Shown here in pieces: positions 12,772 through 36,314 of a stretch of DNA of 44,591 nt. The position numbers were made by a program, and so were the translations under genes. The notes under the pieces were generated by a model. It made no database searches and had not been told where the DNA came from. It saw only the letters and a program-made list of their open reading frames with translations. The stretch is from Methanoculleus sp. (lineage in GTDB: Archaea; Halobacteriota; Methanomicrobia; Methanomicrobiales; Methanomicrobiaceae), in the NCBI GenBank assembly GCA_011048835.1, contig DSDF01000036.1, positions 1 to 44,591 on the forward strand, given 5' to 3'. Position 1 is the first letter of the stretch; each line of letters starts with the position of its first letter.

Positions 12772-12906
12772 CTTCTAGTCATTTATCTTTACTGTCCCAA
12801 AAGCGGGACTTGCATTGGTACTATTCAGGGATTTCGGCGCTGGAATGCGTCCGGCGTCCCTAGTGACAGGACTGTATTGCATAATGGGTAAATGGATGGT
12901 AATTTT

Positions 12907-14211
12907 ATGGCAAAATATGCAGAAACCATCGATCTCTACTCTGATGATGGCAAGATCCTGAAGAGCGGTGTGACGCTCGACAGGATCAGCCCGCTGGTGA
13001 ACCCCGCAACCAGCAAGATCATCGATCTGACGAAGAGAACGATTAACGTCAACCTTGGGGGTATCGAAACCGCCCTCAAGACCGGAAAGCTTGGAAAGGG
13101 AAAGATCAGGGGCCGTGAACTGGACCTTCCGATCATGGAGAACAAGGACGCGCTCGTCGCCAGGATCAGGGAAATGGTGCAGGTAGAAGAGGGCGACGAT
13201 ACCGAGATCCTTGAGTTCAACAATGGCAAGCTGCTGCTGGTGCAGGTGCCCCGAAAGCGCCTCGACAACGCAGCAACCTACGATGCAGCCATCACGTCTG
13301 TGGCGTCCGCGGTGACCTACGCGATCGTCGACCAGTTCGACATCGATGCGTTCAACGCCTCCACCGTCAAGGCGGCAACATGGGGCGGCTACCCCCACAC
13401 GCAGGATATGAACGGCGCTCTCGTGACCTCGATCCTCAACATTCCCCAGAACAATGAAGGTCTCGGCTACGCGCTCCGCAACATCCCCGTCAACCACGTG
13501 GTCATGATGACCAACAGGAACGCCATGCAGGGTGCGGCACTCTCCTCGACCCTCGAGATGGCAGGCGAATTCGAGATGGGCATGGGTATCGGGCCGTTCG
13601 AGCGCAACCTCCTGCTCAGCTACGCCTACCAGGGACTGAACGCAAACAACATGATCTACGACCTGGTCAAGGCCAACGGCGAGAGCGGAACCATCGGAAC
13701 GGTTGTCCAGTCGGTCGTCGAGCGGGCTATCGAAGACAGGGTTATTGCGCCCGGCAAGAAGGGCGGGTACTTCCAGTTCTACGACACCAGGGACCCGATG
13801 CTCTGGAACGCCTATGCGGCAGCAGGCAGCATGGCCGCGACCATCGTCAACTGCGGTGCAGGCCGTTTCGCACAGGCAGTCTCCTCGACGCTGCTGTATT
13901 TCAACGATCTGCTCGAGCACGAGACCGGTCTGCCCAGCACCGACTTCGGCCGGGTAATGGGAACTGCGGTCGGCTTCTCCTTCTTCAGCCACTCCATCTA
14001 CGGTGGCGGTGGTCCGGGTATCTTCAACGGAAACCACGTCGTGACGCGCCACGCCAACGGCGTTGCCATTCCGTGTGTGGTTGCCGCCGCAGCGATGGAT
14101 GCGGGCACCCAGATGTTCTCGCCGGAAAGCACGTCCAAGGTCTTCCAGGACACCTACGGCAAGATCGATGTGTTCAACAAGCCGATTGATCAGATCGCAA
14201 ACGGAGCCTGA
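12907..14211 (+). CDS. mcrB: Methyl-coenzyme M reductase, beta subunit
   Basis: Beta subunit of the alpha2-beta2-gamma2 enzyme that forms methane from methyl-coenzyme M and coenzyme B. The 434-residue product begins with KYAETIDLYSDDGK and shows the conserved GGYPHTQDMNGALV, NHVVMMTNRNAMQGAAL and GGGGPGIFNGNHVVTRH segments, the last lining the F430 channel. Length is that of the family. GGATGGT lies a few bases before the ATG at 12907; an in-frame ATG at 12892 is inside that ribosome site and is rejected. First gene of the operon; mcrG begins only 12 bases after its stop, so mcrD and mcrC are absent from their usual places. Confidence 0.97.
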   Translation: MAKYAETIDLYSDDGKILKSGVTLDRISPLVNPATSKIIDLTKRTINVNLGGIETALKTGKLGKGKIRGRELDLPIMENKDALVARIREMVQVEEGDDTEILEFNNGKLLLVQVPRKRLDNAATYDAAITSVASAVTYAIVDQFDIDAFNASTVKAATWGGYPHTQDMNGALVTSILNIPQNNEGLGYALRNIPVNHVVMMTNRNAMQGAALSSTLEMAGEFEMGMGIGPFERNLLLSYAYQGLNANNMIYDLVKANGESGTIGTVVQSVVERAIEDRVIAPGKKGGYFQFYDTRDPMLWNAYAAAGSMAATIVNCGAGRFAQAVSSTLLYFNDLLEHETGLPSTDFGRVMGTAVGFSFFSHSIYGGGGPGIFNGNHVVTRHANGVAIPCVVAAAAMDAGTQMFSPESTSKVFQDTYGKIDVFNKPIDQIANGA

Positions 14212-14223
14212 GGAGGAATAAAA

Positions 14224-14988
14224 ATGGCATATACACCACAGTATGGTCCCGGTACATCTGTTGTTGCTGACAACCGACGCAGGCAGATGAACCCCACTAC
14301 CGAGCTCGCGAAAGTTCGCGACATCAATGAAGAGGACATTGTGCTGATTCTCGGCCACCGCGCCCCCGGGTCCGCATATCCCACCGCACACCCCCCGCTC
14401 ACCGAACAGGTTGAGCCCGACTGTCCGATGCGCAAGCTGGTAAAACCCACCGCCGGTGCAAAGGCAGGCGACCGTGTCCGCTATATCCAGTTCGCCGACT
14501 CGATGTTCAACGCACCCAGCCAGCCGTACCAGCGTACCTACACCGAGTGCTACCGCTTCCGCGGTATTGACCCCGGCACACTCTCCGGCCGCCAGATCGT
14601 GGAGTGCCGCGAGCGTGACCTCGAACAGTACTCCAAGTTCCTGATCGAGACCGAAATGTTCGACCCTGCACTGGTCAGTGTCCGCGGTGCCACCGTGCAC
14701 GGGCACTCCCTGCGCCTCGCAGAAGACGGGATGCAGTTCGATATGCTCCAGCGCTGCGTTCTGGGAGATAATGGCGTCGTCCGCTACGTCAAGGACCAGA
14801 TCGGTGTTCCCCTCGATCGCGAGGTTGAGGTCGGCAAGCCGATGGACGAGGAATGGCTCAAGGCACACTCAACGATCTTCCACTCGCTCGTCGGTACCCC
14901 CCTGCGTGAGGATCCGGAATATATCGAATACTTGCAGCGCATTCACACGCTGAGGACAAAATACGGCTTTATGCCGAAAGAGGAGTGA
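14224..14988 (+). CDS. mcrG: Methyl-coenzyme M reductase, gamma subunit
   Basis: Gamma subunit of methyl-coenzyme M reductase, 254 residues. It starts with [23 protein letters not shown] and has the conserved [24 protein letters not shown]-like segment (here [15 protein letters not shown]) and the [21 protein letters not shown] core (visible as [19 protein letters not shown]). GGAGG lies 6-10 bases upstream of the ATG. It is 12 bases after mcrB and 5 bases before mcrA, consistent with one transcript and tight coupling of the three subunits. Confidence 0.97.
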
Positions 14989-14993
14989 TTTCA

Positions 14994-16700
14994 ATGGCAA
15001 AAATTGAGCGAGCACAAAAACTCTTCCTTGACTCCTTAAAAGAGAAGTTCCAGGGTGAGGACCCTGAATCCGAGAGGACCACCTTCTACCGCTTCGACGG
15101 TGTCCGCCAGTCCCCGCGCAAGCGGGAGTTCATGAAGGCCACCGAGGCAATCGAGAAAGAACGCGGCATCTCCATGTACGACCCCGAGCGCTGCCATCTC
15201 GGCGGCATTCCGATGGGCCAGCGCCAGCTGATGACCTACCAGGTCAGCCAGTCCGGCGTCTTCGTGGAGGGTGATGACCTGCACTTCGTCAACAACGCCG
15301 CCATGCAGCAGTTCTGGGACGACATCCGCAGGACGGTCATCGTCGGGATGGACATGGCTCATGCAACCCTGCAGAAGCGCCTTGGAAAGGAGGTCACCCC
15401 CGAGACGATCAACGAATACCTGCACATCCTGAACCACGCCATGCCCGGTGCAGCTGTGGTCCAGGAGCACATGGTGGAGACCCACCCCGGAATTGTGGAC
15501 GACTGCTACGTCAAGGTCTTTACCGGCGACGCGGAGATGGCCGACGATATCGAGTCCCAGTTCCTGATCGACGTCGAAAAGCTCTTCCCGGCAGATCAGG
15601 CCGAAGAGCTCAACGCCGACATCGGCAAATCCCTCTACCAGGCAATCCACATCCCGACCATCGTATCGAGGACCTGTGACGGTGGAACCACCAGCCGCTG
15701 GTCCGCCATGCAGATCGGTATGTCCTACATTGCCGCCTACCGGATGTGCGCCGGTGAGGCAGCAGTCGCTGACCTTTCCTACGCCGCAAAGCACGCCGGT
15801 GTCGTGCAGATGGCCTCGCTTCTGCCCGCACGGCGCGCCCGCGGTCCGAACGAGCCCGGCGGTATCAAGTTCGGGGTCTTCGGCGATATCGTACAGGCAA
15901 ACCGCAAGTACCCCAACGACCCCGCCCGCGCCTCGCTCGAGGTCGTCGGCGCCGGCGTGATGCTCTTCGACCAGATCTGGCTCGGATCCTACATGTCCGG
16001 CGGTGTCGGGTTCACCCAGTATGCAACTGCAGCCTACACCGACAACATCCTCGACGAGTTCACCTACTACGGTATGGACTACCTCAAGCAGAAGTACGGC
16101 TTCGATTACACCACCCCGTCCCCCGAGCAGATCATCAAGCCGACCCAGGAGATCGTCAACGATCTCGCCACCGAGGTTACCATTAACGCCATGGAGCAGT
16201 ACGAGCAGTTCCCGACCCTGATGGAGGACCATTTCGGCGGTTCCCAGCGTGCCGGCGTTATCGCCGCAGCATCCGGCCTGACCTGTTCGATCAGTACCGG
16301 CAACTCCAACGCTGGCCTGAACGGATGGTACCTCTCCATGATCGTCCACAAGGACGCATGGTCGCGTCTTGGCTTCTTCGGCTATGACCTGCAGGACCAG
16401 TGCGGTTCCGCAAACTCGCTCTCCATGGAGCCCGACCGCGGCGCAATGGGAGAACTGCGCGGACCGAACTACCCGAACTACGCAATGAACGTCGGCCATC
16501 AGGGTGAGTACGCGGCAATCGTTGCCGGCGCTCACTACGGACGCAACGACGCGTACTGTTTCGAGCCCCTCGTGAAGGTCACCTTTGCGGATCCCTCCCT
16601 CAAGTTCGACTTTGCCGAGCCGCGCCGTGAGTTTGCACGCGGTGCAATCCGTGAGTTCATGCCTGCCGGCGAGCGGTCCCTGATCATCCCGGTGCGGTAA
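14994..16700 (+). CDS. mcrA: Methyl-coenzyme M reductase, alpha subunit
   Basis: Catalytic subunit, 568 residues. Residues to note: the F430 axial glutamine in [10 protein letters not shown] (Gln157), the histidine that is N-methylated in other methanogens (KHAGV, His267), the arginine that is C-methylated ([10 protein letters not shown], Arg283), the glutamine in GGSQRAG (Gln418), the glycine made into thioglycine in [13 protein letters not shown] (Gly463) and the cysteine in the same motif (Cys470). The tyrosine before thioglycine in Methanothermobacter is Phe here, a common variant. Start ATG 14994 follows GGAGTGAT by 5 bases; the frame's earlier GTG at 14985 overlaps mcrG. The [22 protein letters not shown] region fits Methanomicrobiales-type McrA. 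Confidence 0.98.
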
Positions 16701-17007: not shown

Positions 17008-18110
17008 TTAAAAAAATTCATCAATCGTTGCCTGCCGGTCTGCGTTCTGGTCAAATCGTGCGAGGCGTATTCCGATAAGGCGGATCTTCTGGTCACCGAG
17101 GAATTCCTGAATGAGCATTCTTGCGATGCGCTGGATGCTCGTGAGATCGGAGATGAAGTGGTCGGCGGTGTAGGACCTGGTATGGGTGACAAATCCTGCG
17201 AAACGGACTTTGATGGTGAGGTTCCTCAACTGCAGACCCTGCCCTGTCAGGGTTGCGTGCACATCCCCGGCAAGCGTGTCCAGGCTCGAAAGTATTACGT
17301 TGGGATCGCCGATATCTTCCGCAAATGTCACCTCTCTGCCGATGGATTTTCTCATCCCCTTCTCCCGAACCTCGCGGCGGTCGATCCCCCGGGCCAGCTC
17401 CTGCATTGCGATTCCTCCCCTGCCAAACCGTGCAATCAGTTCCTGCACGTCGAATGCGGCAAGCTGCCCGATGGTGATGATCCCCATGGTGCCAAGGACC
17501 ATGGCGGTTTTTTTCCCGATGCCAGGTATGGTGCCGACCTTCATCGGCGAGAGGAAGTCCGCCACTCCTTCAGGCCTCACCACTGTTAACCCATCCGGTT
17601 TCTGGTAATCGGAGGCAATTTTTGCGACGGTTTTGCCCGGCCCGATCCCGATCGAACAGGTGATGCCCTCCTCTGCCCGGATATCCTCCTTGATCACCCG
17701 TGCATACGCCTCGGCAGCGTCGTAGTTCGAAAGGCCGCTGATATCAAGGTACGCCTCGTCAATGCTCACCTGCTGGAACGAATCGGCGTACTTCCTGAGA
17801 ATCCTCATGACCTTCGCCGATACCGCATGATAGAGGGGAAAATTGACCGGCAGGAACACCGCATGCGGGCAGAGCTGGTAGGCCTTCGAGATGGGCATGC
17901 CCGAATGGATGCCGTACTTTCGCGCTTCGTACGAGCAGTGCTCACCACGCCCCGCCCCTGCCCCTGTTTCGGGTCGGCTCCCACCACCACCTGTTTGCCC
18001 TTCAGCTCGGGATGTTCCCGCACCTCTACCGAGGCGAAAAAACTGTCCATGTCGACATGGAGAATGATCCTGCCCGGCGGCGGGGGTTCGGCGTCGCGTG
18101 ATTCCCTCAT
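17008..18110 (-). CDS. dinB: Y-family DNA polymerase IV, frameshifted near 17934
   Basis: Translesion polymerase of the DinB/Dpo4 family. The N-terminal part (18110 to about 17934) carries the first catalytic site [13 protein letters not shown] and GRGVVSTA. The frame is then lost; from 17931 downward another frame continues with [22 protein letters not shown], the second catalytic site [11 protein letters not shown], the helix-hairpin-helix ([11 protein letters not shown]), and the little-finger domain. Restoring one base (GCTTCGTAC in place of GCTCGTAC) makes a continuous protein of about 366 residues. The C-terminus QATIDEFF is a PCNA-binding PIP box. One missing base is the only defect, so a sequencing error is as likely as gene loss. 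Last gene of the leftward operon with egtD. Confidence 0.85.
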
Positions 18111-18231
18111 GCGGTCCGGCATAGCTCCATGATCATTGGGATCCGTCGCGCCTTTATGTGTTCCTGCACGCTGTGAAGGTGGGGTGCGAGGCATCTCTCT
18201 TTCGGCGAAGGGAGCCGGACGCGCATGGGAT

Positions 18232-19233
18232 CTATGCACGCCGGGGGGCCAGTTCGACGAGGGAGAACCAGCGTCGCGGATCGGAAAACCAGCGAGAAAT
18301 GTCGAGGCCAGCCTGTGCGCACATCATTCTGGCACTCTCCGGGGTGAATTTTCTGCTGATCTCCGTATGAATGGTCTCTCCCTCTTCGAGGTCGATGGCG
18401 AGATCGATGTCGGCAATCCTCACGGTCATCGCCTCCCGCGCCCGCAGGTGCATCTCGACCTGCTCTTTCTCCTCGTGATAGAATGCCACATGGTCAAACT
18501 GCGCAGGATCGAAGTCCGCATGCAGGTGGCGGTTGATCACGGCGAGAATGTTTTTATTGAATGCGCTCGTGACGCCCTGGGAATCATTGTAGGCTGCGTT
18601 GAGGTGGTGCGGTGGTTTGGCCATATCGAGGCCCAGAAGAAAGCGGTCATCGGGCGCCATGATGGTCCGCACGTTGCGGAGCAGCCGGACCGCTTCCGGT
18701 CCGGGGAAATTTCCGATCGTGCTCCCGAAGAGAACAAACAGTCGTTTGCTCCCTTGCGGGATCAGGTGGAGGTGAGCGGTGAAATCCGCCACGTAGCCCT
18801 TGATGCACAGGTGCGGAAACAGCCGCGCGAGCTCCCTGGATGCCGCGAGGAGCGCATCCCTGGACACATCAACCGGAATGTACCGGAGTGTTGCCCCTGC
18901 GGTGCCGTTTGCCGCCTTGAGGAGACGGCAGATCTTTTTGTGCGAACCCGAGCCCATCTCGACGAGATCGCCGCGGGCGAACGACTGCATGATGGCAGGC
19001 GCGTGATCCCCGAGGATCTTCATCTCCGTGCGGGTGAGGTAGTATTCGGGAAGGGTGCAGATACGGTCAAACAGGCGCGAGCCGTGTGCATCGTAGAAAT
19101 ATTTTGAGGGCAATCGTTTCTGCTCTGCGGTCATGCCTTCGCGCACATCGTGGGCAAGGCTTGCATGGAAATCCGCCGTGAGGTGGTTGTGCAGTTCAAC
19201 CTTCGGATGAGTTCGGCGCTGGCGCAGCATCAT
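18232..19233 (-). CDS. egtD: EgtD/EanA-type L-histidine N-alpha-methyltransferase
   Basis: SAM-dependent enzyme of 333 residues in the DUF2260/EgtD family, which trimethylates histidine to hercynine, the precursor of ergothioneine. Key segments are all present: [20 protein letters not shown] (substrate tyrosines), [11 protein letters not shown] (SAM site), LFGSTIGNF with the histidine-binding asparagine, [16 protein letters not shown] with the binding tyrosine, and the TEIS motif (Glu and Ser contacting the imidazole) near residue 283. So it looks active and not a relaxed paralogue. It lies 25 bases downstream of the cysteine desulfurase stop on the same strand. No EgtB or rhodanese EanB is in the window, so the fate of hercynine is open. 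Confidence 0.9.
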
Positions 19234-19258: not shown

Positions 19259-20419
19259 TTAACGGCAGACAGAAAACTGTAATAATACCCTCTGGTTGTT
19301 CACCACGTCATCGAATACCCGCAGTGTCTGTTCGATCTCTTCTTCGGTGGTGTGGATCCCGAGGGAGATCCGGATCGAGCAGTGCACCTCTTCTTCTGTC
19401 ACCCCCATGGCGAGGAGGACGTGCGAGGGGGCGGGCGAACCCGAATGGCAGGCGGATCCCGACGAGATAGATACACCCTTCTGGTCGAGTGCGAGCACGA
19501 CCGATTCCCCGCGAAGGCCCGGCAGGGTCATATTGACGGTGTTCGGCAACCGCTCCGTGGCATGCCCGTTGATGCGGGCATCCGGCACAATTTCCTGAAT
19601 GCCGCTCGCAAGCCGATCGCGAAGCGAGCGTATCCGCGCCATATCGCCGAGGTGCTGCCGGGCGAGTTCCGCCGCCCTGCCGAGCCCCACGATGCCGGGG
19701 AGGTTTTCCGTGCCCGCCCGGAGGTGGCGCTCCTGCTCCCCCCCATGGATGAGCGGGTCGATTGCAATGCCTTTCCGCATATACAGTGCACCGATCCCTT
19801 TCGGCCCGTAGATTTTGTGGCCTGAAAGGGTGAGAAAATCAACGCCGAGCGCATCCACGTCGATGGGCAGCTTTCCGATCGCCTGGGTGGCGTCGGTGTG
19901 GAAATACGCGCCGTGCGATCGGGCAATCCGTGCGAGCTCCGGGATGGGCTGGATCGACCCGGTCTCGTTGTTCGCATGCATGATGCTGACCAGCATTGTC
20001 TCCGGTGTTATCGCCGCTTCGAGATCGTCCGGGCACACCCTCCCCTCAGGGTCGACGGGGAGATATGTCACCCGGAAGCCCGCGGTTTCCAGCCATCTGC
20101 ATGGCTCGATGACCGACGAATGCTCGATCGACGAGGTGATGATGTGCGGTTTTTCCTCCCGGTGTGCGAATGCGAAGCCCTTGATCACGAAGTTGTTCGC
20201 CTCGGTGCAGCATCCGGTGAAGGTAATCCTCTTGGCGGTGCAGTTGAGCAGCTGGGCGATGCTCCGGCGGGCACCTTCCATGGCGGCTTTCGCTTCCCTC
20301 CCCTCCCGGTAGATGCTCGAAGGGTTCCCGAACCTCCCCCCGATCCACGGCAGCATCGCCTGCGTGACTTCGGGTGCGATGGGGGTGGTGGCATTATGGT
20401 CGAGATAGATCCGTCGCAT
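19259..20419 (-). CDS. Cysteine desulfurase (NifS/IscS type), in frame with molybdoenzyme
   Basis: PLP enzyme that takes sulfur from cysteine as an enzyme-bound persulfide. The module of 386 residues begins MRRIYLDHNATTP, the classic N-terminus. It contains HANNETGSIQPI, the PLP lysine in TLSGHKIYGPKG, and the persulfide cysteine in SISSGSACHSGSPAPSHVL near the C-terminus, so it is complete. No stop codon separates it from the molybdopterin oxidoreductase upstream: the frame runs through a linker of about 30 residues rich in Gly, Ala and Ser, and the ATG at 20419 has no ribosome site. The sequence as given therefore encodes a fusion. An indel in the linker could hide a normal gene boundary. 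Confidence 0.88.
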   Translation of the reverse strand: MRRIYLDHNATTPIAPEVTQAMLPWIGGRFGNPSSIYREGREAKAAMEGARRSIAQLLNCTAKRITFTGCCTEANNFVIKGFAFAHREEKPHIITSSIEHSSVIEPCRWLETAGFRVTYLPVDPEGRVCPDDLEAAITPETMLVSIMHANNETGSIQPIPELARIARSHGAYFHTDATQAIGKLPIDVDALGVDFLTLSGHKIYGPKGIGALYMRKGIAIDPLIHGGEQERHLRAGTENLPGIVGLGRAAELARQHLGDMARIRSLRDRLASGIQEIVPDARINGHATERLPNTVNMTLPGLRGESVVLALDQKGVSISSGSACHSGSPAPSHVLLAMGVTEEEVHCSIRISLGIHTTEEEIEQTLRVFDDVVNNQRVLLQFSVCR

Positions 20420-22730
20420 CGGTGCGCCGGTTTGCGCAGAAGCGCCGGCGTCGGCACGCGCATGCGACCCCTCACCGCTGCCGATCGCCACGCGGCCTGC
20501 GTCCTCTCCGGCCTTTCGCACATCGCAGAGCAGTGCCTTGTACACGGGAAACCCGGATATGGGATCGTAGCGCTCGAGATCGGTCAGTTCGTTGACATTG
20601 CCCTCCCGCCACGCCTGCGGCGCCTGATGGCAACCGCCACCCATGTTCGCCTCGATCGTACCCTCCATGATGTCGTCGGTGACAATCGCACGCAGAGGTA
20701 CCTGCCCTCGTGCCGTTTCGACTACCACGCGGTCGCCGTACCGGATCCCGCGCGCCCCGGCGTCCCGCGTGTTGATGCTCACGGTGGGCTCAGGCCGCTC
20801 CTCCAAAAAGCTCCTGATGCTGTGGTGCTGGGCATGGAAGTCGGTCGTCACCCGCGCGCCCGAGTTGAAGACCAGCGGGAATCGCTCCGCAAGATCGGGG
20901 CGGGACCGCGGGCTTTCCTGCGGTTCCGTGTAGACCGGGAGGGGATCGTAGCCGTACTCTTCGAGTATGGTGGAACAGATCTCGAATTTTCCCGTGGGTG
21001 TGTCGAACCCCGGGGCTCCATCGGGGCGCAGGAGGCCCTTTTCCCATTTCCTGTACTGCATCATCGGAACCGGCGCCTGCACCCTTCCTCCCGCCGCCCT
21101 CACCTCTTCGGGGGAAAACCCGGACCCTTTCAGGACATTGCGGAGCGGTTCTTCTTCGTTCTGGGGGAAGAGATGGCCGTATCCAAGCCTTCGCGCGAGC
21201 TCCGCCATGATAAAGACATCCGCTCGCGATTCCCCTCGCGGCTCGATCACACGCTCCCGAATCCGGAAGACCGGTCCGTAGGTCATGTAGGATTCGGTTT
21301 CAAAGAGCGTGGATGCCGGCAGAACGACGTCGGCATAGGCCGCGTCGGCGGTAAGGTGGCGGTCCACGCAGACCATGAAATCAATGTTTTTGAGCGTTTC
21401 CCGCCATATCGGCGTTTGCGGCCATGAGATCAGCAGGGATCCTGCCTGCACGATGAGAGCGCGTATCCTGTAGGGCTTTCCTTCAAGCACCGATTTGGGA
21501 AGGGCTATTGCATGCGATTCTTTGCGGTAATGCGTATAGACCGGAAAGCGGTCGGTCCCTAGCGCCTTTTTCATGTCGGGGTTGGGAAGGTACCCTGCCC
21601 GGTTGATGGGAAACTGGTATCCCGTCATGGTGAAGCAGCGTCCGCCCGGCACGTCCAACTGGCCCGCGAGCGCCCAGAGGACGATCGTCGCCCGTATCGT
21701 CTGGACACCGCTGTCACTGTATTCAAGACCGCTGTACATCGCCGTCGTTGCGCCATCCGCAGCAGCGATGCGCCGCGCGAGCGATGCAACGGCTGCTGCG
21801 GGGACGCCGGTGATATATTCCACGATTTCGGGACGGTAGTGCTGTACATAGCTGGAAAACTCTTCGAACCCATATGACCAGTCCCTGACAAATTCCTCGT
21901 CGTAGAGTTCTTCTGCGATGAGGACGTTGCAGAGCCCCAGCGCCAGCGCCCCGTCCGTTCCCGGGCGTATGGGGATCCAGACCGCATCGCAAAGTTCCAC
22001 CGTCTTCGTCTTCCGGGGGGTCGATGACCACGACCTCCGCGCCCCGCGCCCTCGCCGCGAGTATCCTGCGAAGCGTGATGGGGGGAAAGTCGGTGGCGGG
22101 ATTGGTGCCCCAGACCACGATGAGGTTCGCGTGTTCGTAATCCGAATAGGTATTGATGTGCATGCGTCCCATGGTGACGTGGGGGGCGATCATGGCGAAC
22201 GATACGTAGCAGAGCGCCCCGACGCCCATGGTGTTGGGGGATCCGAACGGAAACAGCACGCTCGAAGCGGATGAGACCGCCACATCCTTCGGCTGGAAGA
22301 TATCGCAGAACGAGAGTTCGAAACTGCCCGAGCCCGTATAGATCGCGACCGCTTCCGGGCCGTATTGCTCCTTGATGTCTTTGAGCCTCGCAACGATGCT
22401 GTCGTATGCCTCGTCCCACGAGATTCGCTCGAATGCGTGGGTTCCTTTCGGCCCGTTTCGTTTGAGCGGGTACAGCACCCTGTCTTCGGAGTAGACGATC
22501 TCCGCCGCATGTTCGCCGAGGTTGCAGACGATGCCCAGATCAGCATCCTCGTCCGCACGCACCCGCGCAATCCTGCCCTCATCGTCATAGGTCACGATGA
22601 CGCCGCAACCCGCCGAGCATATCCCGCAGAGTGCGCGGCGCTCCCGCATGCAATTCGCAGCAGTCTTTTCACCTTCGTTCACGTCAACCACAGATCCTCG
22701 GGAATACAGGGTATCAAAAATAACCTGCAT
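20420..22730 (-). CDS. Molybdopterin oxidoreductase, FdhA/PsrA-like, one frameshift
   Basis: Molybdenum or tungsten bis-pterin enzyme of the DMSO reductase superfamily. The N-terminal part (22730 to about 22020) has the Fe4S4 ligands CGICSAGC and GIVCNLG, then SWDEAYDSIV and a cysteine in GALCYVSF at the position where such enzymes ligate the metal. The frame breaks in a run of six G at 22015-22020; with five, DPRKTKTVELCDAVWIPIRPG follows, as in the family. The rest contains GLEYSDSGVQT, VDRHLTADAAYADVVLP and the C-terminal pterin-binding domain ending PVYKALLCDVRK, then a linker into the cysteine desulfurase. Substrate cannot be told from motifs: formate, polysulfide and thiosulfate enzymes all share them. 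The start is uncertain (22730 or GTG 22682). Confidence 0.85.
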
Positions 22731-26817: not shown

Positions 26818-26921
26818 TGGTGTTGGTGATGGGGGCGCTGGGAAATGTGCCGCATTGCCCTGCAGGATAGAGAGAGAAATGAGAGCATCGACGAGTGGCT
26901 GCGGCGGTGGATTGCAGGCTG

Positions 26922-27635
26922 TCATACCAGCCAAACGTCCGCGATGGACCCGATGCCGATCCCGAGGAACACCGCAGCGACACCTCTCTTCACCCAGAAA
27001 TCGACCGCCTGGGCCCGTTGCAGCAGCCGTGCCGCCTGCCCGACGCCGCGGACGAGCAGCAGGGAAACCACCATCACCGGCAGTGCCGTGGCGATGCCGA
27101 ACACGCCGGGCACAAGGAGGGCATCGCCGGTTTTCAGGGCAATGGGGATGAGCATGCCGAAGAAGAGCACGGCGCTGAAGGGGCAGAAACTGAGCGCAAA
27201 CAACACGCCGAGGAGAAAGCTCCCTGCTCCCCCCTTCTCTGAAAGTTTCTCCATGAGCGACGCGAGCCGTCTGCCCCCACCAGGAAGGTGAATGTCAACG
27301 ACATCGAGCATCAGGATGCCGAGGACCAGCAGCAGCGGCCCGAGGAGCATCATGCCGTAGTCCTGGAGGAAGAAGGAGACGGCCTGCACGTTGAGGCCGG
27401 CATACACGATCGCCGCGGCAAGGGCCACGTATGCAACGGTCCTCCCGGCGCCGTAGAGCGATCCGACCAGGAGCGTGTCGTGGCTGTTGCCCATGCGGCG
27501 GAGGACGTAGGCGATGGCGGTGATGTTGGTGGCGAGCGGACACGGGCTCATCGCCGTCATCAGCCCGATGAAAAACGCGGCGACGAGCGGGACGCCGCTC
27601 ATCCCCATCGCCTGCATGAACCCCATGATATCCAT
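26922..27635 (-). CDS. arsG: ArsG-like efflux permease (DsbD/CcdA superfamily)
   Basis: A 237-residue membrane protein with six or seven helices. MTAMSPCPLATNITAIAYV near residue 27 and ALSFCPFSAVLFFGMLIP near residue 149 are the paired Cys-Pro motifs of the DsbD/CcdA fold. In the ArsG branch this is reported to export trivalent aromatic arsenicals, together with ArsF; I use that name from the pairing and motif, not from proof. An electron-transfer role across the membrane is the alternative. GGAGG lies 8 bases before the ATG. It starts 11 bases after the stop of arsF. Confidence 0.75.
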   Translation of the reverse strand: MDIMGFMQAMGMSGVPLVAAFFIGLMTAMSPCPLATNITAIAYVLRRMGNSHDTLLVGSLYGAGRTVAYVALAAAIVYAGLNVQAVSFFLQDYGMMLLGPLLLVLGILMLDVVDIHLPGGGRRLASLMEKLSEKGGAGSFLLGVLFALSFCPFSAVLFFGMLIPIALKTGDALLVPGVFGIATALPVMVVSLLLVRGVGQAARLLQRAQAVDFWVKRGVAAVFLGIGIGSIADVWLV

Positions 27636-27646
27636 AACCCTGCCTC

Positions 27647-28138
27647 CTATGTCAGCTGCTGGTCGATCACGGCTCTGATGTATGCCGAGAACTTCTGCTG
27701 GTCGCCGATCATGTACCAGGGGCCGAGCAGTTCTTCCTTATAGAACCCGTTCTCGTCGTAGATGCCTATCCAGAGAGACGATCCTGTCGGGCCGTAGCGC
27801 TCGACGATCTCGCGGTTCTCGGACATCGCAATATCGATGTGATCGAAGACGATCTGGCCGGACTGGAGTTCCTGTGCATAGTAGGTATTCACGGTCTCTT
27901 CGGTGAGATCTCCCAGCATCACGCAGGAAACGCACCTGCTCGCGCCATAAAAGTGGAAGAGCTCGATCTTCTCAACATTCGATCCGATGTAGCCGACCTC
28001 TGCCGACTGGCCGGTCGCAGCCTCTCCCCCGTTCCCGGTGCAGCCGGCGGTGAGCACCGCTGCGGCGGCGATGACGAGAAGCAGGGATAGCGGGAGGATC
28101 CTGATCGACCGAGTATTTGGTGAGATTGATAATTTCAT
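27647..28138 (-). CDS. arsF: ArsF-like lipoprotein with Cys-x-x-Cys
   Basis: A 163-residue exported protein. The N-terminus has a basic region, a hydrophobic stretch and a lipobox-like LTAGC at about residue 33, so it is probably a membrane-anchored lipoprotein. The mature part is thioredoxin-like: FHFYGASRCVSCVMLGDLTEETV, with a Cys-x-x-Cys. This matches the family annotated as nitrophenyl compound nitroreductase subunit ArsF. It may pass electrons to or from ArsG across the membrane. GGAGGAACC immediately precedes the ATG at 28138. A sequence resembling the ArsR operator of this window lies about 85 bases upstream. Confidence 0.78.
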   Translation of the reverse strand: MKLSISPNTRSIRILPLSLLLVIAAAAVLTAGCTGNGGEAATGQSAEVGYIGSNVEKIELFHFYGASRCVSCVMLGDLTEETVNTYYAQELQSGQIVFDHIDIAMSENREIVERYGPTGSSLWIGIYDENGFYKEELLGPWYMIGDQQKFSAYIRAVIDQQLT

Positions 28139-28221
28139 GGTTCCTCCTCTTCGCAGTGGGGCCTGGGGAGCGGGCATGCGGATACGCACGGTTCGGCCGG
28201 CGTGTCCCCGCCCGCGAGTAT

Positions 28222-28237
28222 TTCAAAATTTTTTGTA
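28222..28237. promoter_or_regulatory. Operator-like site upstream of arsFG
   Basis: TTCAA-N6-TTGTA, differing at one base from the TTCAA-N6-TTGAA palindromes found in front of arsR. It is 84 bases before the arsF start. This suggests, without proving, that arsFG answers to the same ArsR regulator. One extra base is included at the 3' side. Confidence 0.4.
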
Positions 28238-28457
28238 ATACTAGGGTTTGCAGGGAGTGTATTGAATCTTTCGCGATCTGGGAATGCTGCCTCCTGCACT
28301 ATTCAGCGGCCGCAGCGCACCGCAAATCCGCTGCATCCCACTATCGAATCAGATCTGGCGGAGTTCCTGCGGCCGGATCGATAATGGATGCCCTCTCGCT
28401 CCCTCCAGTGATAAGTGCCTGTTTTGAAAGAGGAGCGGATGGCCTCCTGACATCACC

Positions 28458-28880
28458 TCATCTCGGAGAAAACGCAAAAATCGGGACGATACCCCGGAGG
28501 CCGGCCCCGGCACCCGTCTTCACTGGAGGCAATGACTCCTCTGCACCATCCACCCCCGGCCACCGGCGGGTTCGATGTGGATGGATCTCGGTGCGCTCAC
28601 CCATCACCCCCCCTGCCGGCGGAAAGAGGACGACACGGTCCCCGTCTTGGAGCACCGTATCCATCCCCCGGATAAAATGGATATTTCTCCCGTTCACAAG
28701 GATGTTCACGAACCGTTTCAGTTCGCCGGGGGTGTCGAAGAGCGCCTCTTCGAGGCCGGGATACCGGCGAAATAGAACTTCCATGAGATCGCCGACCGCG
28801 GCCCCCTCCCCGATGCGAACCATGGTCTCCCGCTCCGCAACATCCCGGAGCGAGGCAAACGTCTTCACCAGTACCTGCAT
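28458..28880 (-). CDS. MoaD-like sulfur carrier with apparent C-terminal extension
   Basis: Ubiquitin-fold sulfur carrier used in making the pterin cofactor of tungsten or molybdenum enzymes. The first 91 residues are a normal MoaD: MQVLVKTFASLRD at the start and DGDRVVLFPPAGG at the end, the Gly-Gly being the site of adenylation and thiocarboxylation. As given, the frame runs 49 residues beyond Gly-Gly. The cause is a run of seven C at 28607-28613; with six, the codon after Gly-Gly is TGA (28604-28606). The extension is thus very probably a sequence error. GAGGTGAG precedes the ATG. It is 4 bases after the thiF/moeB gene and belongs to the AOR operon. Confidence 0.85.
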   Translation of the reverse strand: MQVLVKTFASLRDVAERETMVRIGEGAAVGDLMEVLFRRYPGLEEALFDTPGELKRFVNILVNGRNIHFIRGMDTVLQDGDRVVLFPPAGGVMGERTEIHPHRTRRWPGVDGAEESLPPVKTGAGAGLRGIVPIFAFSPR

Positions 28881-28884
28881 GCTC

Positions 28885-29631
28885 TCACCTCGCACTCGCA
28901 TTCCTCCTGTGGTCCCCGCAGACAGGACAGGCCGCATCCCCTTCAACTGCCAGCACCTCGGCCTCTGCCCGCAACCCGTCCCAGAGCAGGAGACGGCCGG
29001 CGAGGAGTTCCCCTGTCCCGGCCAGCCACTTGATCGCCTCGGCCGTCTGCATGCACCCGATAACACCCGCGGTGACACCGAGGATCGGCACCGCTCCGCC
29101 CGGCGGAGGGTGCGGCACGATACACCGGAGGCAGGGCGTTGTTTCCGGTATGATCGTCGTCACCTGGCCGAAGAACCCGTGGATGGCGCCATGGATAAAG
29201 GGGACCCCACATTCCCGTGCAGCATCGGCGAGAAGGTAGCGCGCATTGAAGTTATCCATCCCGTCGAGAATGAGATCGACCCCTTCTGCGAGTTCGCGCA
29301 CGTTTTCTGCATCGATGCTGGCCTCGACCGGTTCGACACGCAGGTGCGGGCCGGCCCCCATGAGCCGTTCCGCCGCCGCTACGGCTTTGGGCGTGCCGAG
29401 GTCTGCATCGCGGTAGAGGATCTGGCGGTTGAGGTTGCTCAGATCGACCCGGTCCTGATCCACGATCCGGATCCTGCCGATTCCTGTATAGGCGCAGTGG
29501 AGGGCGATGGAAGTGCCGAGCCCTCCTGCACCGGCGACAAGCACGGATGCTTCCCTGAGCCGTTCCTGCCCCTCTTCGCCGATAAGCGAAAGCTGCCGCC
29601 GGTACCGCTCGCGGTCGGCAGGGGTGAGCAT
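28885..29631 (-). CDS. ThiF/MoeB/HesA-family adenylyltransferase
   Basis: Activates the C-terminus of a ubiquitin-like sulfur carrier with ATP. The 248-residue protein has the nucleotide motif GAGGLGTSIALHCAYTG (about residue 33), DQDRVDLSNLNRQILY, and Cys pairs near the end, CLRC and CPVC, forming the structural zinc site. It lacks the rhodanese domain of eukaryotic MOCS3. GGAGGGAAGG precedes the ATG by a few bases. Position between AOR and the MoaD-like gene shows its job: the maturation of the tungstopterin cofactor, probably dedicated to this AOR. Confidence 0.9.
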   Translation of the reverse strand: MLTPADRERYRRQLSLIGEEGQERLREASVLVAGAGGLGTSIALHCAYTGIGRIRIVDQDRVDLSNLNRQILYRDADLGTPKAVAAAERLMGAGPHLRVEPVEASIDAENVRELAEGVDLILDGMDNFNARYLLADAARECGVPFIHGAIHGFFGQVTTIIPETTPCLRCIVPHPPPGGAVPILGVTAGVIGCMQTAEAIKWLAGTGELLAGRLLLWDGLRAEAEVLAVEGDAACPVCGDHRRNASAR

Positions 29632-29645
29632 ACCCTTCCCTCCGG

Positions 29646-31421
29646 TCACTCCAGCCCGAGCTCTGCACGTTTCTCCTTCGTCGGAACCCCTTCCGCGTCC
29701 CATCCCCTGAGTGCGTAGTACTCGTCGAGGAGGGGTTGGCGCTCCCAGACCCTGCCCTTCGGCGCCAGATCCTGCAGGGGCTCGGTGAGCAGACGCTTGG
29801 GAAGGGTGTCGTCCGCTTTCGTATACCCTGCTTTGATATTGAAGAGTTTCTGGAGGTTCCAGATACGCTCGCCAATCCTGAGCAGGGCGGTTGTATCGAT
29901 CGGCATGCCGGTCGTCGCCGCGCACAGGTCGGCGTAATCCTCCGCCCCGAGGGCAAACGAGGTGAAGAGGCACATCCCGGAGGCGTCGATGGCAGCCGTG
30001 AGGTCCTGGAAGATCTTTGTCCACCGCGCCTTGCCCTCGTTGACAAAGGGATCGATCTTCTCCGGGGACCCGAGGACCTCCGGAGCAATCATATAGCCAT
30101 AGACATGGTCGCCCCCCCTGACCGAGGTGGCGTAGGCCAGACCATGCCCCTGCAGCCCCCGGGGGTCGTAGGCGGGCAGGTCCTGCTTTTTGACGCTCAT
30201 CGAGAGTTCGGGGTGGCCGTGCCGTTCGGCGAACCGGTAGGAGCCGTCGGCGAGTTCGGCGCCGAAACCTTCACGATAGCCGATCTGCCGTACGAGGTCG
30301 ATCAGTCCTTCCGTCTCCCCGAACCGCGGGCCGTCGGTGATGTAGCCTCGCTCGCGCATCTCCATTGCGCAGGCGATGGCCGCCGGGGCACCGATGGCAT
30401 CCAGGCCCAGCTTGTTGCATTCCCAGGTCGCCTTCGTCACCATCCGGATATCGTCGATGTCGAGGTCTGCGCCGAACGCCCAGACAGGCTCGTACTCCGG
30501 ACCTTCGTGCACCTCTCCGTCGACCTCGCAGACCCGGCTGCAGCGGACGATGCAGGCGTAGCAGCCGCTGTTCTTCTGCAGGATCGTGTCGGCGATCGTC
30601 TCGCCGGATATCTTTTCCGCGTTCTCGAAGTACCCGCGCTGGAAATTCCTCGTCGGGAGAATCCCGTTCTCATTGATGATGTTGACAAGCACCGAGGTGC
30701 CGTACTTGGTCAGTGCTTCGCAGATCCCGTTTGTCTGGATCTTTTCACGGATCCGCTCTTTCACGACGTCGAGCTGGTCACGGTCCGCCTCGGTGATCGG
30801 GAGGTTCCCTGTAGCGACAATCGCCTTGAGGTTCTTTGCGCCCATGACAGCGCCTGCACCGCTCCTTCCTGCTGCCCGATCATAATCGTTCAGCACGCAG
30901 GCAAGCAGGCTTTGCTTCTCCCCGGCGGGGCCGATGCAGGCGACCTTCGCTTTCTCGTCGCCAATGTCGGCGATCAGCGCATCCGTTGTCTCATGCACCG
31001 TCATTCCCCAGTACGCCGCCGCATCTCGGAGTTCTGCGGTTCCTTCGCTGAGGAAGAGGTAAACGGGTTTGTCGGATCTGCCGAAGAAGACCGCCGCGTC
31101 GAATCCGGCCTTTTTGATCTTCCAGCCGAAGGTGCCGCCGCTGTTGGCCGACATCAGCGTCCCGTTCAGCGGTGATTTTGCGTTCACCTCGTACCTGCTC
31201 CCGAGAGGGATGCCCGTGCCGGTGAGGGGTCCCGATGCTACCACGAATACGTTCTCGGGGGAGAGCGGGTCAGCGGCCGGATCCATATGATCCGTCACGA
31301 TACGGGCGCCGAATCCCCTGCCGCCCAGGTAGTCGCGTTTCAGGTCGTCGGGTGTCTCCTTGAAATCAACCGTCCCGTTCGTGAGGCTAACATAAGCCAT
31401 CTTTCCTGCATATCCATCCAC
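29646..31421 (-). CDS. aor: Aldehyde:ferredoxin oxidoreductase (tungsten enzyme)
   Basis: Tungstopterin iron-sulfur enzyme that oxidises aldehydes to acids with ferredoxin, or the reverse. About 591 residues. Visible: GYAGKMAYVSLTNG start, GGRGFGARI, NAKSPLNGTLMSANSGG, DRAAGRSGAGAVMGAKNLKA (pterin contacts), the cluster ligands CYACIVRCSRVC, and a later cysteine in DASGMCLFTSF. The start is probably GTG 31421, with GGTGAT just upstream; a TTG at 31436 is possible. A good TATA box lies 32-40 bases upstream. First gene of the operon with ThiF/MoeB and MoaD. Whether it belongs to AOR proper or a related aldehyde-specific branch cannot be told. Confidence 0.9.
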   Translation of the reverse strand: MDGYAGKMAYVSLTNGTVDFKETPDDLKRDYLGGRGFGARIVTDHMDPAADPLSPENVFVVASGPLTGTGIPLGSRYEVNAKSPLNGTLMSANSGGTFGWKIKKAGFDAAVFFGRSDKPVYLFLSEGTAELRDAAAYWGMTVHETTDALIADIGDEKAKVACIGPAGEKQSLLACVLNDYDRAAGRSGAGAVMGAKNLKAIVATGNLPITEADRDQLDVVKERIREKIQTNGICEALTKYGTSVLVNIINENGILPTRNFQRGYFENAEKISGETIADTILQKNSGCYACIVRCSRVCEVDGEVHEGPEYEPVWAFGADLDIDDIRMVTKATWECNKLGLDAIGAPAAIACAMEMRERGYITDGPRFGETEGLIDLVRQIGYREGFGAELADGSYRFAERHGHPELSMSVKKQDLPAYDPRGLQGHGLAYATSVRGGDHVYGYMIAPEVLGSPEKIDPFVNEGKARWTKIFQDLTAAIDASGMCLFTSFALGAEDYADLCAATTGMPIDTTALLRIGERIWNLQKLFNIKAGYTKADDTLPKRLLTEPLQDLAPKGRVWERQPLLDEYYALRGWDAEGVPTKEKRAELGLE

Positions 31422-31452
31422 AGCTATCACCAGCAAAACCCTCTGTCTTGAT

Positions 31453-31461
31453 GTATATAAA
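31453..31461 (-). promoter_or_regulatory. TATA box of the aor operon
   Basis: Minus-strand TTTATATAC preceded by an A-rich stretch. Transcript start would be near 31432. The stretch 31437-31735 between aor and the DGC gene holds no recognisable gene besides this promoter. Confidence 0.55.
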
Positions 31462-31735
31462 CATTTTTTTCAAAAGAATGAAATGTCTGTGTTCTTCTGC
31501 CCGCAGGGACATCCGGCAGGTCCAGAGGTTTTTCGGCGGGCGGATGCTGCAACTTCACGCCCATGACAGGAGGAGGCTTCCCGGATCCTGGCGAGGTGGA
31601 CGCGATGGATCTTTTCGACAACCCCGTTTTGCGACGACCTCACATCCCCGGTGGCACGATCCGCTCGTGCGGGCGCATCGTTCCGGCGGAGATGCCAGAA
31701 TGAAACGAGCAAGCGATACGACCGTCACCGGGACG

Positions 31736-32011
31736 TCATGTGCGCCCGACCGGAATACTCCCGTCAGCAGCACCCGTCACGCTCTCGCAGCGGCCTGAGA
31801 CGGTCTTTCTCCCGCAGCAGTCGGCGCAGCCGTCGAGAATGAGGATTTTCTCCGCATGGCCGATCGCCTCCTCGACCGATTGGGTCGGGTGGGTCGCCGA
31901 AATGTAGGCCTCTATCTCCCTTCCGCAACGATAGAGGAGTGTACTCCCTGTCTGCGTGGTCAGCTTCCCGGTATTCGAGATCCCGGAGCAGGTGATGATG
32001 GTGAACGCCAT
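31736..32011 (-). CDS. DGC-domain putative zinc-binding protein
   Basis: A 91-residue member of the DGC family, named for its Asp-Gly-Cys motif. TCSGISNTGKLTTQTG at the start and LILDGCADCCGRKT near residue 58 give the conserved cysteines. Such proteins are found with metalloid and metal resistance genes; the function is unknown. It is shorter than the paralogue at 34107-34511, ending soon after the DGC motif, so a lost tail by indel is possible. Its ATG directly follows the stop of the small upstream frame. Last gene of the ArsR-controlled operon. Confidence 0.72.
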   Translation of the reverse strand: MAFTIITCSGISNTGKLTTQTGSTLLYRCGREIEAYISATHPTQSVEEAIGHAEKILILDGCADCCGRKTVSGRCESVTGAADGSIPVGRT

Positions 32012-32173
32012 TCACCGAACCCCGAATGTCTCATCAATCCATCTGCATATATCGTCACGGATGCGGTGCACACCGTCCATAATCTCTACATCGGTGCCGG
32101 TGAGGATCGTCTGCTTCACCCGGTCAACTCCGGCGGACCCGGCTGCTCTGCCGCACCCTGCCTCTTGTTGCAT
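32012..32173 (-). CDS. Small frame, possible tail of the DUF2703 gene
   Basis: A frame of 53 codons whose last 36 residues (VKQTILTGTDVEIMDGVHRI and onward, ending ETFGVR) look like genuine helical protein. It overlaps the end of the DUF2703 gene in another frame, and its TGA abuts the ATG of the DGC gene. It may be a separate short gene, or the true C-terminus of the DUF2703 protein displaced by one extra base in the overlap. Family not recognised. Confidence 0.4.
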   Translation of the reverse strand: MQQEAGCGRAAGSAGVDRVKQTILTGTDVEIMDGVHRIRDDICRWIDETFGVR

Positions 32174-32624
32174 CGTCCTCTATCAGCGGCGCCCCACAGC
32201 CGCATTCCGAACAGCAGGGCTCATCCGGGCCGTTCATCTCCGCCACCAGCTTCAGGATCACCCGGTGGATCAGCTCTGCGGGGATCGCCTCGTGGAGTTC
32301 TCCTTCATACTCGATCGCCCGGCACTCCACATCGTCCTGCCCGGTGATGCAGGCGCAGGATGCGCAGGCGGTGGCGGTCACCGTCATCCCCTCGATGAGA
32401 TCCTCGAGCGGGGTTCCGTTGAAGAGGATGTTGTTGGACTCTTCGATCCCCTCATCGGGGAGGACCGTCTCGATGATCCTGACCTCGATCCCCACCTTCT
32501 CGAGAACCGGCCGGATCTCCTCGACCGCCCGGATGACCGCAAAGCCGGTCTCCCCGCAGCGTTCGCAGGTGTTCGTAACGTCTTTTCCGATGTGCTTCCA
32601 CTCGATGACGATTTCGTTGTGCAT
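32124..32624 (-). CDS. DUF2703-like cysteine-rich protein
   Basis: A 166-residue cytoplasmic protein. It begins with IEWKHIGKDVTNTCERC and later contains ILFNGTPLEDLIEG and TATACASCACITG; this pattern is that of DUF2703, a thioredoxin-fold-like family often beside metalloid resistance genes. Cysteine pairs CERC, CASCAC and CCSECGCG suggest metal or metalloid binding. The final 15 residues are Arg/Ser-rich and unlike the rest, so the true end may be altered by an indel (see the overlapping small frame). Start 32624 follows GGAGATGA by 6 bases. Function unknown; inferred role in arsenic or other soft-metal handling from context. Confidence 0.75.
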   Translation of the reverse strand: MHNEIVIEWKHIGKDVTNTCERCGETGFAVIRAVEEIRPVLEKVGIEVRIIETVLPDEGIEESNNILFNGTPLEDLIEGMTVTATACASCACITGQDDVECRAIEYEGELHEAIPAELIHRVILKLVAEMNGPDEPCCSECGCGAPLIEDDATRGRVRQSSRVRRS

Positions 32625-32659
32625 TGGTTTCATCTCCAATTTTTTGGTATCGCTGTTCT

Positions 32660-33087
32660 CTACCGCACCATCAGCACGTGCGCCGTTGCCCGGTGCACCA
32701 CGGCCTCGGCCACTCCGCCAAGGAGTGCTCGTACTGCGCCGTGCCGGCCTTTTGCGCCCATCACGACGATGGTGGGCTCAAATGCATCTTCTACCTCGAG
32801 GATCTCGTCGATTGCATTCCTGGTGACCAGCTCGGTCACGACCTGGGGGATACCGAGGGGGTAAACCGGGCCTTCAGGTCGGCGAGCCGCTGTTCGTCCT
32901 TTCTGTTGAACGCTGTGATCTCTTCCTGCGATGCAGTCCAGAGCCGCCGTGTGTCCTGGACGTGCAGAAGGACGAGCCGTTCAGGCTTCGCCCCCGCCAT
33001 CCACTCGATGAACGGGATGCACCGTTCGGCCTCTTCAGAGAAGTCGGTGAGGTAGAGGATCCGGCGGAAGATGCCGGTGGTCAGCAT
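32660..33087 (-). CDS. UspA domain, joined to ACR3, frameshifted
   Basis: Universal stress protein module. It begins [17 protein letters not shown] and continues to the run of five G at 32857-32861, where the frame is lost. Adding one base gives [22 protein letters not shown], then [24 protein letters not shown] (the nucleotide-binding motif), ending VLMVR at the TAG 32660-32662. So the domain is whole apart from one base. Upstream, the frame runs without a stop into the ACR3 permease. The ATG at 33087 could be an independent start but has no clear ribosome site. Confidence 0.72.
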
Positions 33088-34079
33088 ACACGCATCCGGG
33101 TCCCCTTCTTTCATGATGGCGATGGCCACCTCGAAGTGGTTCGAGGCGCCGATCATCCCGGCAGGCGCGGCGTCCCGGTAGGGCAGGCCGAGCCGGCGGG
33201 AGAGGACAAAGTAGCCCAGGGTGAAGATGAGCACCGTCTGGATGAAGAGCGGGATCGCAATCCAGAGGATGGTCAGGGGGTTTTCGACGATGACGTCCCC
33301 TTTGAAGGTGAAGAGGAGGACGAGCGTCCCGAGCAATGCCACGATGGAGACCGGGGTAAGCAGGTGGAGAAACCTTGTCTCGAACCACGCCTTCCCCTTC
33401 CGTGCGATGATCCATTTCCGGGTGAAATACCCGGCGATGAGCGGGAGACCCACATCGATGGTGACCGAGAGGAGGATCGTCTCCCAGGGGATGGGCATGG
33501 CGTTCACCCCGAGGAGGAACCCGCCGAGGGGGGCGTAGAGCACGAGCATGGTGAGCGAGTTGATGGCTACCATGATCAGGGTCAGGCCGTCGTTTCCCCG
33601 CGCGAGATAACTCCACATCAGCACCATCGCCGTGCAGGGGGCGATGCCCAGCAGAATGCAGCCGGCCACATAACTCCGCCAGAGCTCGACCGTGGTCCCG
33701 TCTGGAAGCACCTCGGTCCCCGGAATGAATCCTACGAAGAAATACCCAGGAAGAGGGTGGCGATGAGGTACATCGAAAACGGCTTTACCGCCCAGTTCAC
33801 GAAGAGGGTGAGGGCAACCGGTTTCGGGGTCTTTGCTGCCCGCAACACCTCCGCAAAATCGATCTTGACCATGATGGGATACATCATGAAGAAGAGGGCG
33901 ATGGCGATCGGGATCGAGACCTGGTAGACGGAATACGAGTCGAGGGCGACGGCGATGCCGGGCGCGGCCCTGCCGAGCGCGATGCCCGCCACGATGCAGA
34001 GTGCGACCCAGACCGTGAGGTATTTCTCAAAAGTGGAGAGGCGGCGTTCCCCAAGGGTTGCTTCCGCCACGTTGTTCAC
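33088..34079 (-). CDS. acr3: ACR3-type arsenite permease, frameshifted and C-terminally shortened
   Basis: Arsenite efflux carrier of the bile/arsenite/riboflavin transporter superfamily. The N-terminal part (34079 to about 33747) has the first helices and ATLFLG; there the frame is lost in CCC at 33745-33747. Adding one base restores [14 protein letters not shown] and onwards. The functional cysteine in [10 protein letters not shown] and glutamate in [11 protein letters not shown] are present, so it could transport. After the latter motif the last helix found in ACR3 proteins is missing, and the frame passes instead into a UspA domain. About 330 residues remain where family members have roughly 350-390. 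Fourth to fifth gene of the ArsR-controlled operon. Confidence 0.82.
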
Positions 34080-34106
34080 CTGGTCATCCGGGACCTTGAG
34101 TGTTCA

Positions 34107-34511
34107 TCAATCGTTTCTGCCCACCCCTTCCCATGCGGCGGACACGACGGTCTCGACGTCAGCATCGGAGAACTCTCTCGATCCTGCCTTGGCGATGCCG
34201 AGCGCCGTGACCACGATATGCTGGTCGGGGGTGATTCCCTGCGCCCCCGCGATCTCCCTGCCGCACGCAATGGGGCAGCCGTCGATGACGATCACTTCGT
34301 CGGCATCCCCGATGCTCTTCATCAGCCCTTCCGCTCCGGTGGCGAGCAGCGCCATGCAGGCGGCAGCCCCGAAGCCCTCCTCGGTGAGCTGCAGCGCCGC
34401 AAGGTTCGAGAGCTGCCCCACGTTGGCGACGCCGGCGCAGGGGAAGATGTTCCGTTTTTTCCCGGTCTGGGCGGAGGTGTCGCCGCAGGAGCAGGATGGT
34501 TGCTCAGGCAC
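34107..34511 (-). CDS. DGC-domain putative zinc-binding protein, full length
   Basis: A 134-residue protein of the same DGC family as 31736-32011. It has an N-terminal CSCGD, then FPCAGVANVGQLSNLAALQL, a GFGAAACMA segment and VIDGCPIACGREI with the DGC motif, and a complete C-terminal part HIVVTALGIAK. Cysteines suggest zinc or metalloid binding; no enzyme activity is established. Start is a GTG at 34511 preceded by GGTGAGGGGG; alternative starts are not evident. It lies between the redox-disulfide protein and ACR3, with gaps of under 30 bases, so it is firmly in the operon. Confidence 0.82.
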   Translation of the reverse strand: MPEQPSCSCGDTSAQTGKKRNIFPCAGVANVGQLSNLAALQLTEEGFGAAACMALLATGAEGLMKSIGDADEVIVIDGCPIACGREIAGAQGITPDQHIVVTALGIAKAGSREFSDADVETVVSAAWEGVGRND

Positions 34512-34518
34512 GTCCCCC

Positions 34519-34755
34519 TCACCCCTGCAGGATCTCCTTGAGTTCGTTCACGTCCGCGACCCGGCCGGAGACCTTCAGTTCGCCGTCGACGATCAGCCCC
34601 GGGGTGAGCATGACCCCCCGGTCCATGATGGCGGTGATGTCCTCGACCTTGATGATCTCGGCATCGATCCCGAGGTCGGCGACCGCTTTCTCGACATTCT
34701 TCACAAGCCGCCTGCATTTGGCGCAGCCGGTTCCCAGCACTTCAATCCTGACCAT
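34519..34755 (-). CDS. Redox-active disulfide (thioredoxin-like) protein
   Basis: A 78-residue mini-thioredoxin of the MTH895 type. The active site is GTGCAKCRR at residues 8-16 (Cys-x-x-Cys), and the cis-proline loop is GVMLTPGLIVDGEL. These proteins in archaea lie beside predicted permeases and ArsR regulators, as here, and may reduce a metal(loid) or a permease disulfide; that role is unproven. ATG 34755 is preferred, with GGAG 10 bases upstream; the frame's GTG at 34764 lies inside the ribosome site. Five bases separate it from the preceding small gene. Confidence 0.88.
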   Translation of the reverse strand: MVRIEVLGTGCAKCRRLVKNVEKAVADLGIDAEIIKVEDITAIMDRGVMLTPGLIVDGELKVSGRVADVNELKEILQG

Positions 34756-34760
34756 TGGTT

Positions 34761-35036
34761 TCACACTCCTTTCCGGTATTCCCTCAGCAGGGCGATGGCA
34801 TAGGCATCCTCTGCCTGACGAGGGACGTAGTTATAGATTTTCGCTCGCCTGAGCAGTTCGTTCTTCAGCGGTTCTTGCGCGGAGATGCCGAGCGAGGCCA
34901 CCTCCTCGAAGATGGCATCGAGCATGGCAAGCCCGACGGTGACCCCGTCCACGTTCACCCGGCGGATACTCCGCAGGGCCTCCGCAGCGCAGCAGGGTTG
35001 TTGTTCAGCATCTCTGTTCGTCAATTCACACCACAT
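34761..35036 (-). CDS. Conserved-looking small protein of unknown family
   Basis: A 91-residue protein I do not recognise. The N-terminus has a CC pair (QQPCCAAE), then RRVNVDGVTVGLAMLDAIFEEV and RRAKIYNYVPRQAEDAYAIAL, an amphipathic helix-turn pattern that looks like real protein. No membrane segment. The start overlaps the permease end by 16 bases and its stop lies 5 bases before the redox-disulfide gene, so it is translated as part of the operon. The true start may be further in. Likely a partner of the permease or the redox protein. Confidence 0.65.
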   Translation of the reverse strand: MWCELTNRDAEQQPCCAAEALRSIRRVNVDGVTVGLAMLDAIFEEVASLGISAQEPLKNELLRRAKIYNYVPRQAEDAYAIALLREYRKGV

Positions 35037-36121: not shown

Positions 36122-36268
36122 GACAGGTTCCTCTGTGGGTTTTTTGTGTGAAGAATATGGTGCTCATTCTGTGTTCCTCATTGTTCATGTCATAGCACTG
36201 TCTGTGCCCGGAACGCCGCGCCGGTGATTGGTTCCCTCTGCGCTGCACGCCCCACCTCCGGATGCGAT

Positions 36269-36284
36269 TTCAACATTGTTTGAA
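36269..36284. promoter_or_regulatory. ArsR operator copy 1 (TTCAA-N6-TTGAA)
   Basis: Perfect inverted repeat TTCAA and TTGAA with six bases between. On the permease side it falls around the expected transcript start, downstream of a minus-strand TATA-like box (36306-36314). Binding here would block transcription. Confidence 0.7.
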
Positions 36285-36305
36285 CTACTATTGAGGCACT
36301 CCTGC

Positions 36306-36314
36306 ATAAATCTT
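36306..36314 (-). promoter_or_regulatory. TATA box of the permease operon, between two operators
   Basis: Minus-strand GATTTATGC. It is bracketed by operator copies 1 and 2, a layout typical of repressor control. Transcript start would be near 36285, giving a leader of about 160 bases. Confidence 0.5.

Follow-up and report, generated by a model that had tools for sequence, protein, structure and literature searches.

A probable ergothioneine operon with a fused metallopterin-dependent synthase in a methanogenic archaeon of the order of Methanoculleus

The DNA analysed here, a stretch of 44,591 nucleotides from a draft assembly of Methanoculleus sp. (referred to as the window), carries on its minus strand a molybdopterin oxidoreductase which is joined in frame to a cysteine desulfurase and is directly followed by the gene of the histidine methyltransferase EgtD. 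Judged from its sequence features, this locus is, with a probability of about 0.94, the ergothioneine operon of a methanogenic archaeon of the order of Methanoculleus, the fused protein being metallopterin-dependent ergothioneine synthase (MES). Observed for the window locus were the architecture, the residues, the gene pairing, the co-occurrence and the selection. The same fusion is described as MES in Beliaeva & Seebeck 2022 (PMC9516567), so that the statement of the earlier note on this DNA, which knew of no described protein of this layout, had been overtaken by that publication. The enzyme class has been known since 2022, and what is added here is a wider distribution and not a new kind of enzyme.

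Architecture and genuineness of the fusion

Positions 19259-22000 (-) hold an open frame which runs for 913 aa, or for 976 aa when counted between stop codons, and which starts within a molybdopterin oxidoreductase and finishes as a complete NifS/IscS-type cysteine desulfurase, whereby the Pfam domains PF00384 and PF01568 are followed in frame by PF00266 (class-V aminotransferase/NifS; E=3e-85, residues 531-891). The 5' part of the molybdoenzyme, comprising the Fe4S4 domain PF04879 and the start of PF00384, lies in a different frame at 22018-22730 (-) and forms the N-terminal piece upstream of the frame break, for which translation could alternatively begin at the ATG at 22649 (-). Numbered from the ATG at 22730, this piece contains the Fe4S4 cysteines Cys35/38/42/69 and the metal-ligand Cys174 (codon 22209-22211). 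The rest of the metallopterin (bis-MGD) module occupies 20513-22014 (-) and ends ...FPVYKALLCDVRK, followed by an open, sequence-variable Gly/Ala/Ser-rich linker at about 20417-20512 (-) and by the desulfurase module at 19259-20416 (-; TIGR03402, 505 bits). Within the latter, the PLP lysine is encoded at 19814-19816, the persulfide cysteine at 19448-19450, a third conserved cysteine at 19379-19381 and the penultimate cysteine at 19265-19267. The earlier note had placed the fusion, and the meeting point of the two frames at 22015-22020, correctly.

That both modules form one protein, as the earlier note had read from this single assembly, is confirmed by the relatives. The linker is free of stop codons in the window and in 22 other aligned fused proteins, two of which are of the same genus, and in both other genomes of the genus examined (G001 and G002) a single uninterrupted frame, of 1212 and 1170 aa respectively between stops, covers the entire protein, with 89% identity to the window. 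A scan of genome contigs for the two-domain architecture, a search the earlier note had proposed, yielded 19 fused loci, 17 of them intact in one frame. The archaeal loci, found in the two other genomes of the genus, in Methanoculleus sp. FWC-SCC1 (73% identity to the window) and in further methanogens of the order, form one clade with full support in the tree, while the bacterial loci (about 55–63% identity) are labelled Desulfobacterales (Desulfobacterota), Geobacteraceae, Gemmatimonadota, Myxococcales and Rokubacteria, among others; besides strain FWC-SCC1, named strains with the fusion include Pelotalea chapellei DSM 13688 and Geotalea sp. SG265. In a draft assembly with a frame error close by, one might suspect that two separate genes were wrongly joined during assembly, but the chance of it is vanishingly small and the idea was ruled out, since the same fusion occurs in independently assembled genomes, named strains included. 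An internal restart at the NifS ATG was likewise rejected: the ATG is not conserved, and in the relative L031 the codon is not ATG with the frame still open; the earlier note had seen no ribosome site at this ATG.

When the window was compared to its congeners, each of the two modules gave a dN/dS of about 0.1, as did the sequence on either side of the frame break; for the metallopterin module (20513-22014), values of 0.07-0.08 were obtained against its relatives. The linker gave 1.1 and 0.39, as compared to about 0.1 on its flanks. In a structure predicted from a 22-sequence alignment, the linker has a pLDDT below 50 (residues 716-743 of the relative L032); the prediction of the metallopterin module from an alignment of this size was poor (mean pLDDT 62). 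By their dN/dS values, both modules are under purifying selection and the linker is relaxed: the protein is maintained as a single functional unit whose linker is free to vary.

The frame break of the window copy

The homopolymer frameshift which had been noticed in the molybdoenzyme part was found again as one extra C in the C6 run at 22015-22020 (-). Nucleotide alignment with the relatives L031, L032 and L033, all three of which are intact, revealed a single gap in that stretch, namely the extra base in the C run. The gene dinB (DNA polymerase IV, named from sequence; 17008-18239 (-)), two genes downstream of MES, is interrupted at about 17938 by an indel of one base when compared to both congeners, probably through the same kind of assembly error. 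The two single-base indels are about 4 kb apart, in genes that are well preserved apart from them, and the source is a draft of 139 contigs. As the extra C is missing in the relatives and dinB close by is hit by an indel of its own, the simplest reading is that the extra base likely is an assembly or sequencing error, a recent real mutation being less probable. Unlikely by comparison is that the frameshift marks a decaying MES copy in an organism that no longer makes ergothioneine: the extra base does break the frame, and the aligned relatives are without it, but no further lesion occurs across more than 1,100 codons, dN/dS is low on both sides of the break, the downstream EgtD is intact and the dinB indel suggests errors in the draft contig. 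In the assemblies of a Rokubacteria MAG and of Geotalea toluenoxydans (L047 and L048), MES is likewise split by frame breaks.

Proposed assignment to ergothioneine synthesis

The gene directly downstream of the fusion, at 18232-19233 (-) and separated from it by 25 bp, encodes EgtD, the L-histidine N-alpha-methyltransferase (TIGR03438, 363 bits, cut-off 290.9; E=8e-76 against M. smegmatis EgtD, 4pim), and its position points to the ergothioneine pathway. The earlier note had seen the fusion and missed this neighbour. EgtD adjoins the fusion, upstream or downstream, in 17/19 loci and is the only conserved neighbour: around the 19 fusions, all other clusters either overlap MES/EgtD in a different frame or are limited to a small number of close relatives. 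Two fused loci (L039 and L043) have no EgtD within the stretch examined.

According to PMC9516567, MES is co-encoded with a histidine methyltransferase in 55 genomes, four homologues, one of them from a Euryarchaeota genome, made ergothioneine in E. coli, and both modules were required there to put the sulfur of cysteine onto trimethylhistidine. For the MES of Caldithrix abyssi the same paper lists Cys153 (metal ligand), Lys952 (PLP), Cys1074 and Cys1135 as essential and Cys1097 as conserved with a two-fold effect. Two half-dead C. abyssi chains failed to complement each other, from which it was concluded that sulfur moves within one polypeptide. In the mechanism proposed there, the imidazole attacks the metal-bound sulfido as nucleophile and a protein persulfide resulfurates the centre.

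All residues named in PMC9516567 have counterparts in the window, the matching being based on the position numbers printed there. In the 913-aa piece, K729, C851, C874 and C912 show spacings of 122, 23 and 38, identical to those of K952, C1074, C1097 and C1135 in the 1136-aa C. abyssi protein as printed, and C14/17/21/48 and C153 of the latter correspond to window Cys35/38/42/69 and 174. In L044, whose open frame begins near the N-terminus, the matching cysteines are at 13/16/20/46 and 151. The four Fe4S4 cysteines and the ligand cysteine are invariant in 17/17 relatives and in 22/22 aligned proteins, and in every one of the 17 intact relatives the last two residues are Cys-Arg or Cys-Lys. The window protein and the MES of C. 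abyssi share the module order, a similar length (1136 aa; relatives of the window protein about 1120-1150 aa), the Fe4S4 cysteines, metal-ligand Cys, PLP Lys, persulfide Cys and penultimate Cys, the pairing with EgtD and an anaerobic host, and differ only in sequence, in the host being a methanogen and in the frame break of the window copy.

By analogy with the recombinant MES homologues, the window protein would catalyse the same reaction. EgtD would trimethylate histidine, and the C-terminal PLP desulfurase would take the sulfur of cysteine as persulfide; via the loop cysteine and the C-terminal cysteine, this persulfide would reach the Mo/W bis-MGD centre in the N-terminal module. From its site on the metal, the sulfur would then be placed on C2 of the trimethylhistidine imidazole ring, a step that would proceed without oxygen. 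Two further cysteines, C115 and C708 (numbering of L032), are invariant in 22/22 aligned fused proteins and are not among the residues named in the part of PMC9516567 at hand; C708, the last invariant residue ahead of the linker, corresponds to window codon 20525-20527. Judging from their conservation, these two might relay the persulfide from the C-terminal cysteine to the metal and so provide more relay stations than described, a tentative suggestion with the odds rather against it.

The earlier note had supposed that the desulfurase serves the metal of its own partner. Of this, direct transfer is most likely, transfer in the C. abyssi homologue being intramolecular according to PMC9516567. 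The maturation of the formate dehydrogenase type that went with it was not borne out: in MES, sulfur is a co-substrate which is spent in each turnover to make ergothioneine. It is very improbable that the molybdoenzyme is of the formate dehydrogenase type and that its fused desulfurase, in place of IscS-FdhD, sulfurates the cofactor a single time during maturation. Sulfur transfer from desulfurase to metal is a known theme, the domain order permits it and TIGR01591 (Fdh-alpha) gives partial matches, but with 179 and 106 bits the two molybdoenzyme pieces score far under the cut-off of 666 bits. Furthermore, among solved structures the larger piece is closest to acetylene hydratase (2e7z, E=9e-52), no neighbour other than EgtD is conserved, and C-S bond formation by homologues with the same essential residues is documented in PMC9516567. 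A formate dehydrogenase identity was therefore rejected on the basis of the TIGR01591 score and the gene neighbourhood.

Related systems, distribution and meaning

Acetylene hydratase of Syntrophotalea acetylenica (2e7z) shares with MES the bis-MGD fold, the Fe4S4 cluster and a probable cysteine ligand, but is without a desulfurase module and hydrates acetylene. In the E. coli IscS-FdhD-formate dehydrogenase system, desulfurase sulfur reaches a bis-MGD metal as in MES, whereas three separate proteins, a one-time maturation and a different reaction are involved. EgtB and EanB lead to the same product from the same upstream enzyme, EgtD, yet are unrelated to MES; EgtB depends on O2 and iron, and EanB, a rhodanese-like enzyme, draws on polysulfide. 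The source genome has no EgtB, the enzyme that requires oxygen.

Among 232 genomes of the class, 11 have EgtD, counted only above the TIGR03438 cut-off, and 11 have the fusion: both occur together in 10, EgtD alone in 1, MES alone in 1 and neither in 220 (Fisher p about 1e-15, a value not corrected for relatedness among the genomes). Of nine genera examined in the window's own family, only one had the MES pathway. In a genome of the same order that is 99% complete (G080), EgtD (L139, 9866-11077) occurs without MES, and the surrounding 20 kb hold no MES match; here either MES was lost or trimethylhistidine has another use. In another genome of the same family (G025), EgtD is in pieces with a stop codon (L140, 10939-11342), and no MES match was found within the 20 kb examined.

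Elsewhere in the window, mcrB, mcrG and mcrA (methyl-coenzyme M reductase) follow one another at 12892-16700 (+) with neither mcrD nor mcrC between them, and their presence marks the organism as a methanogen. A stretch of about 10 kb (26836-37120) has no nucleotide match in the syntenic contig of either congener; it contains an ArsP-type permease at 35021-36121 (-), and eight longer plus-strand open frames tested between 26845 and 34803 gave no Pfam match.

With the locus assigned as an ergothioneine operon, methanogens that are strict anaerobes would possess a full pathway to ergothioneine which works without oxygen, as a patchy trait (11/232 genomes of the class), and this bears on the role of ergothioneine under such conditions.
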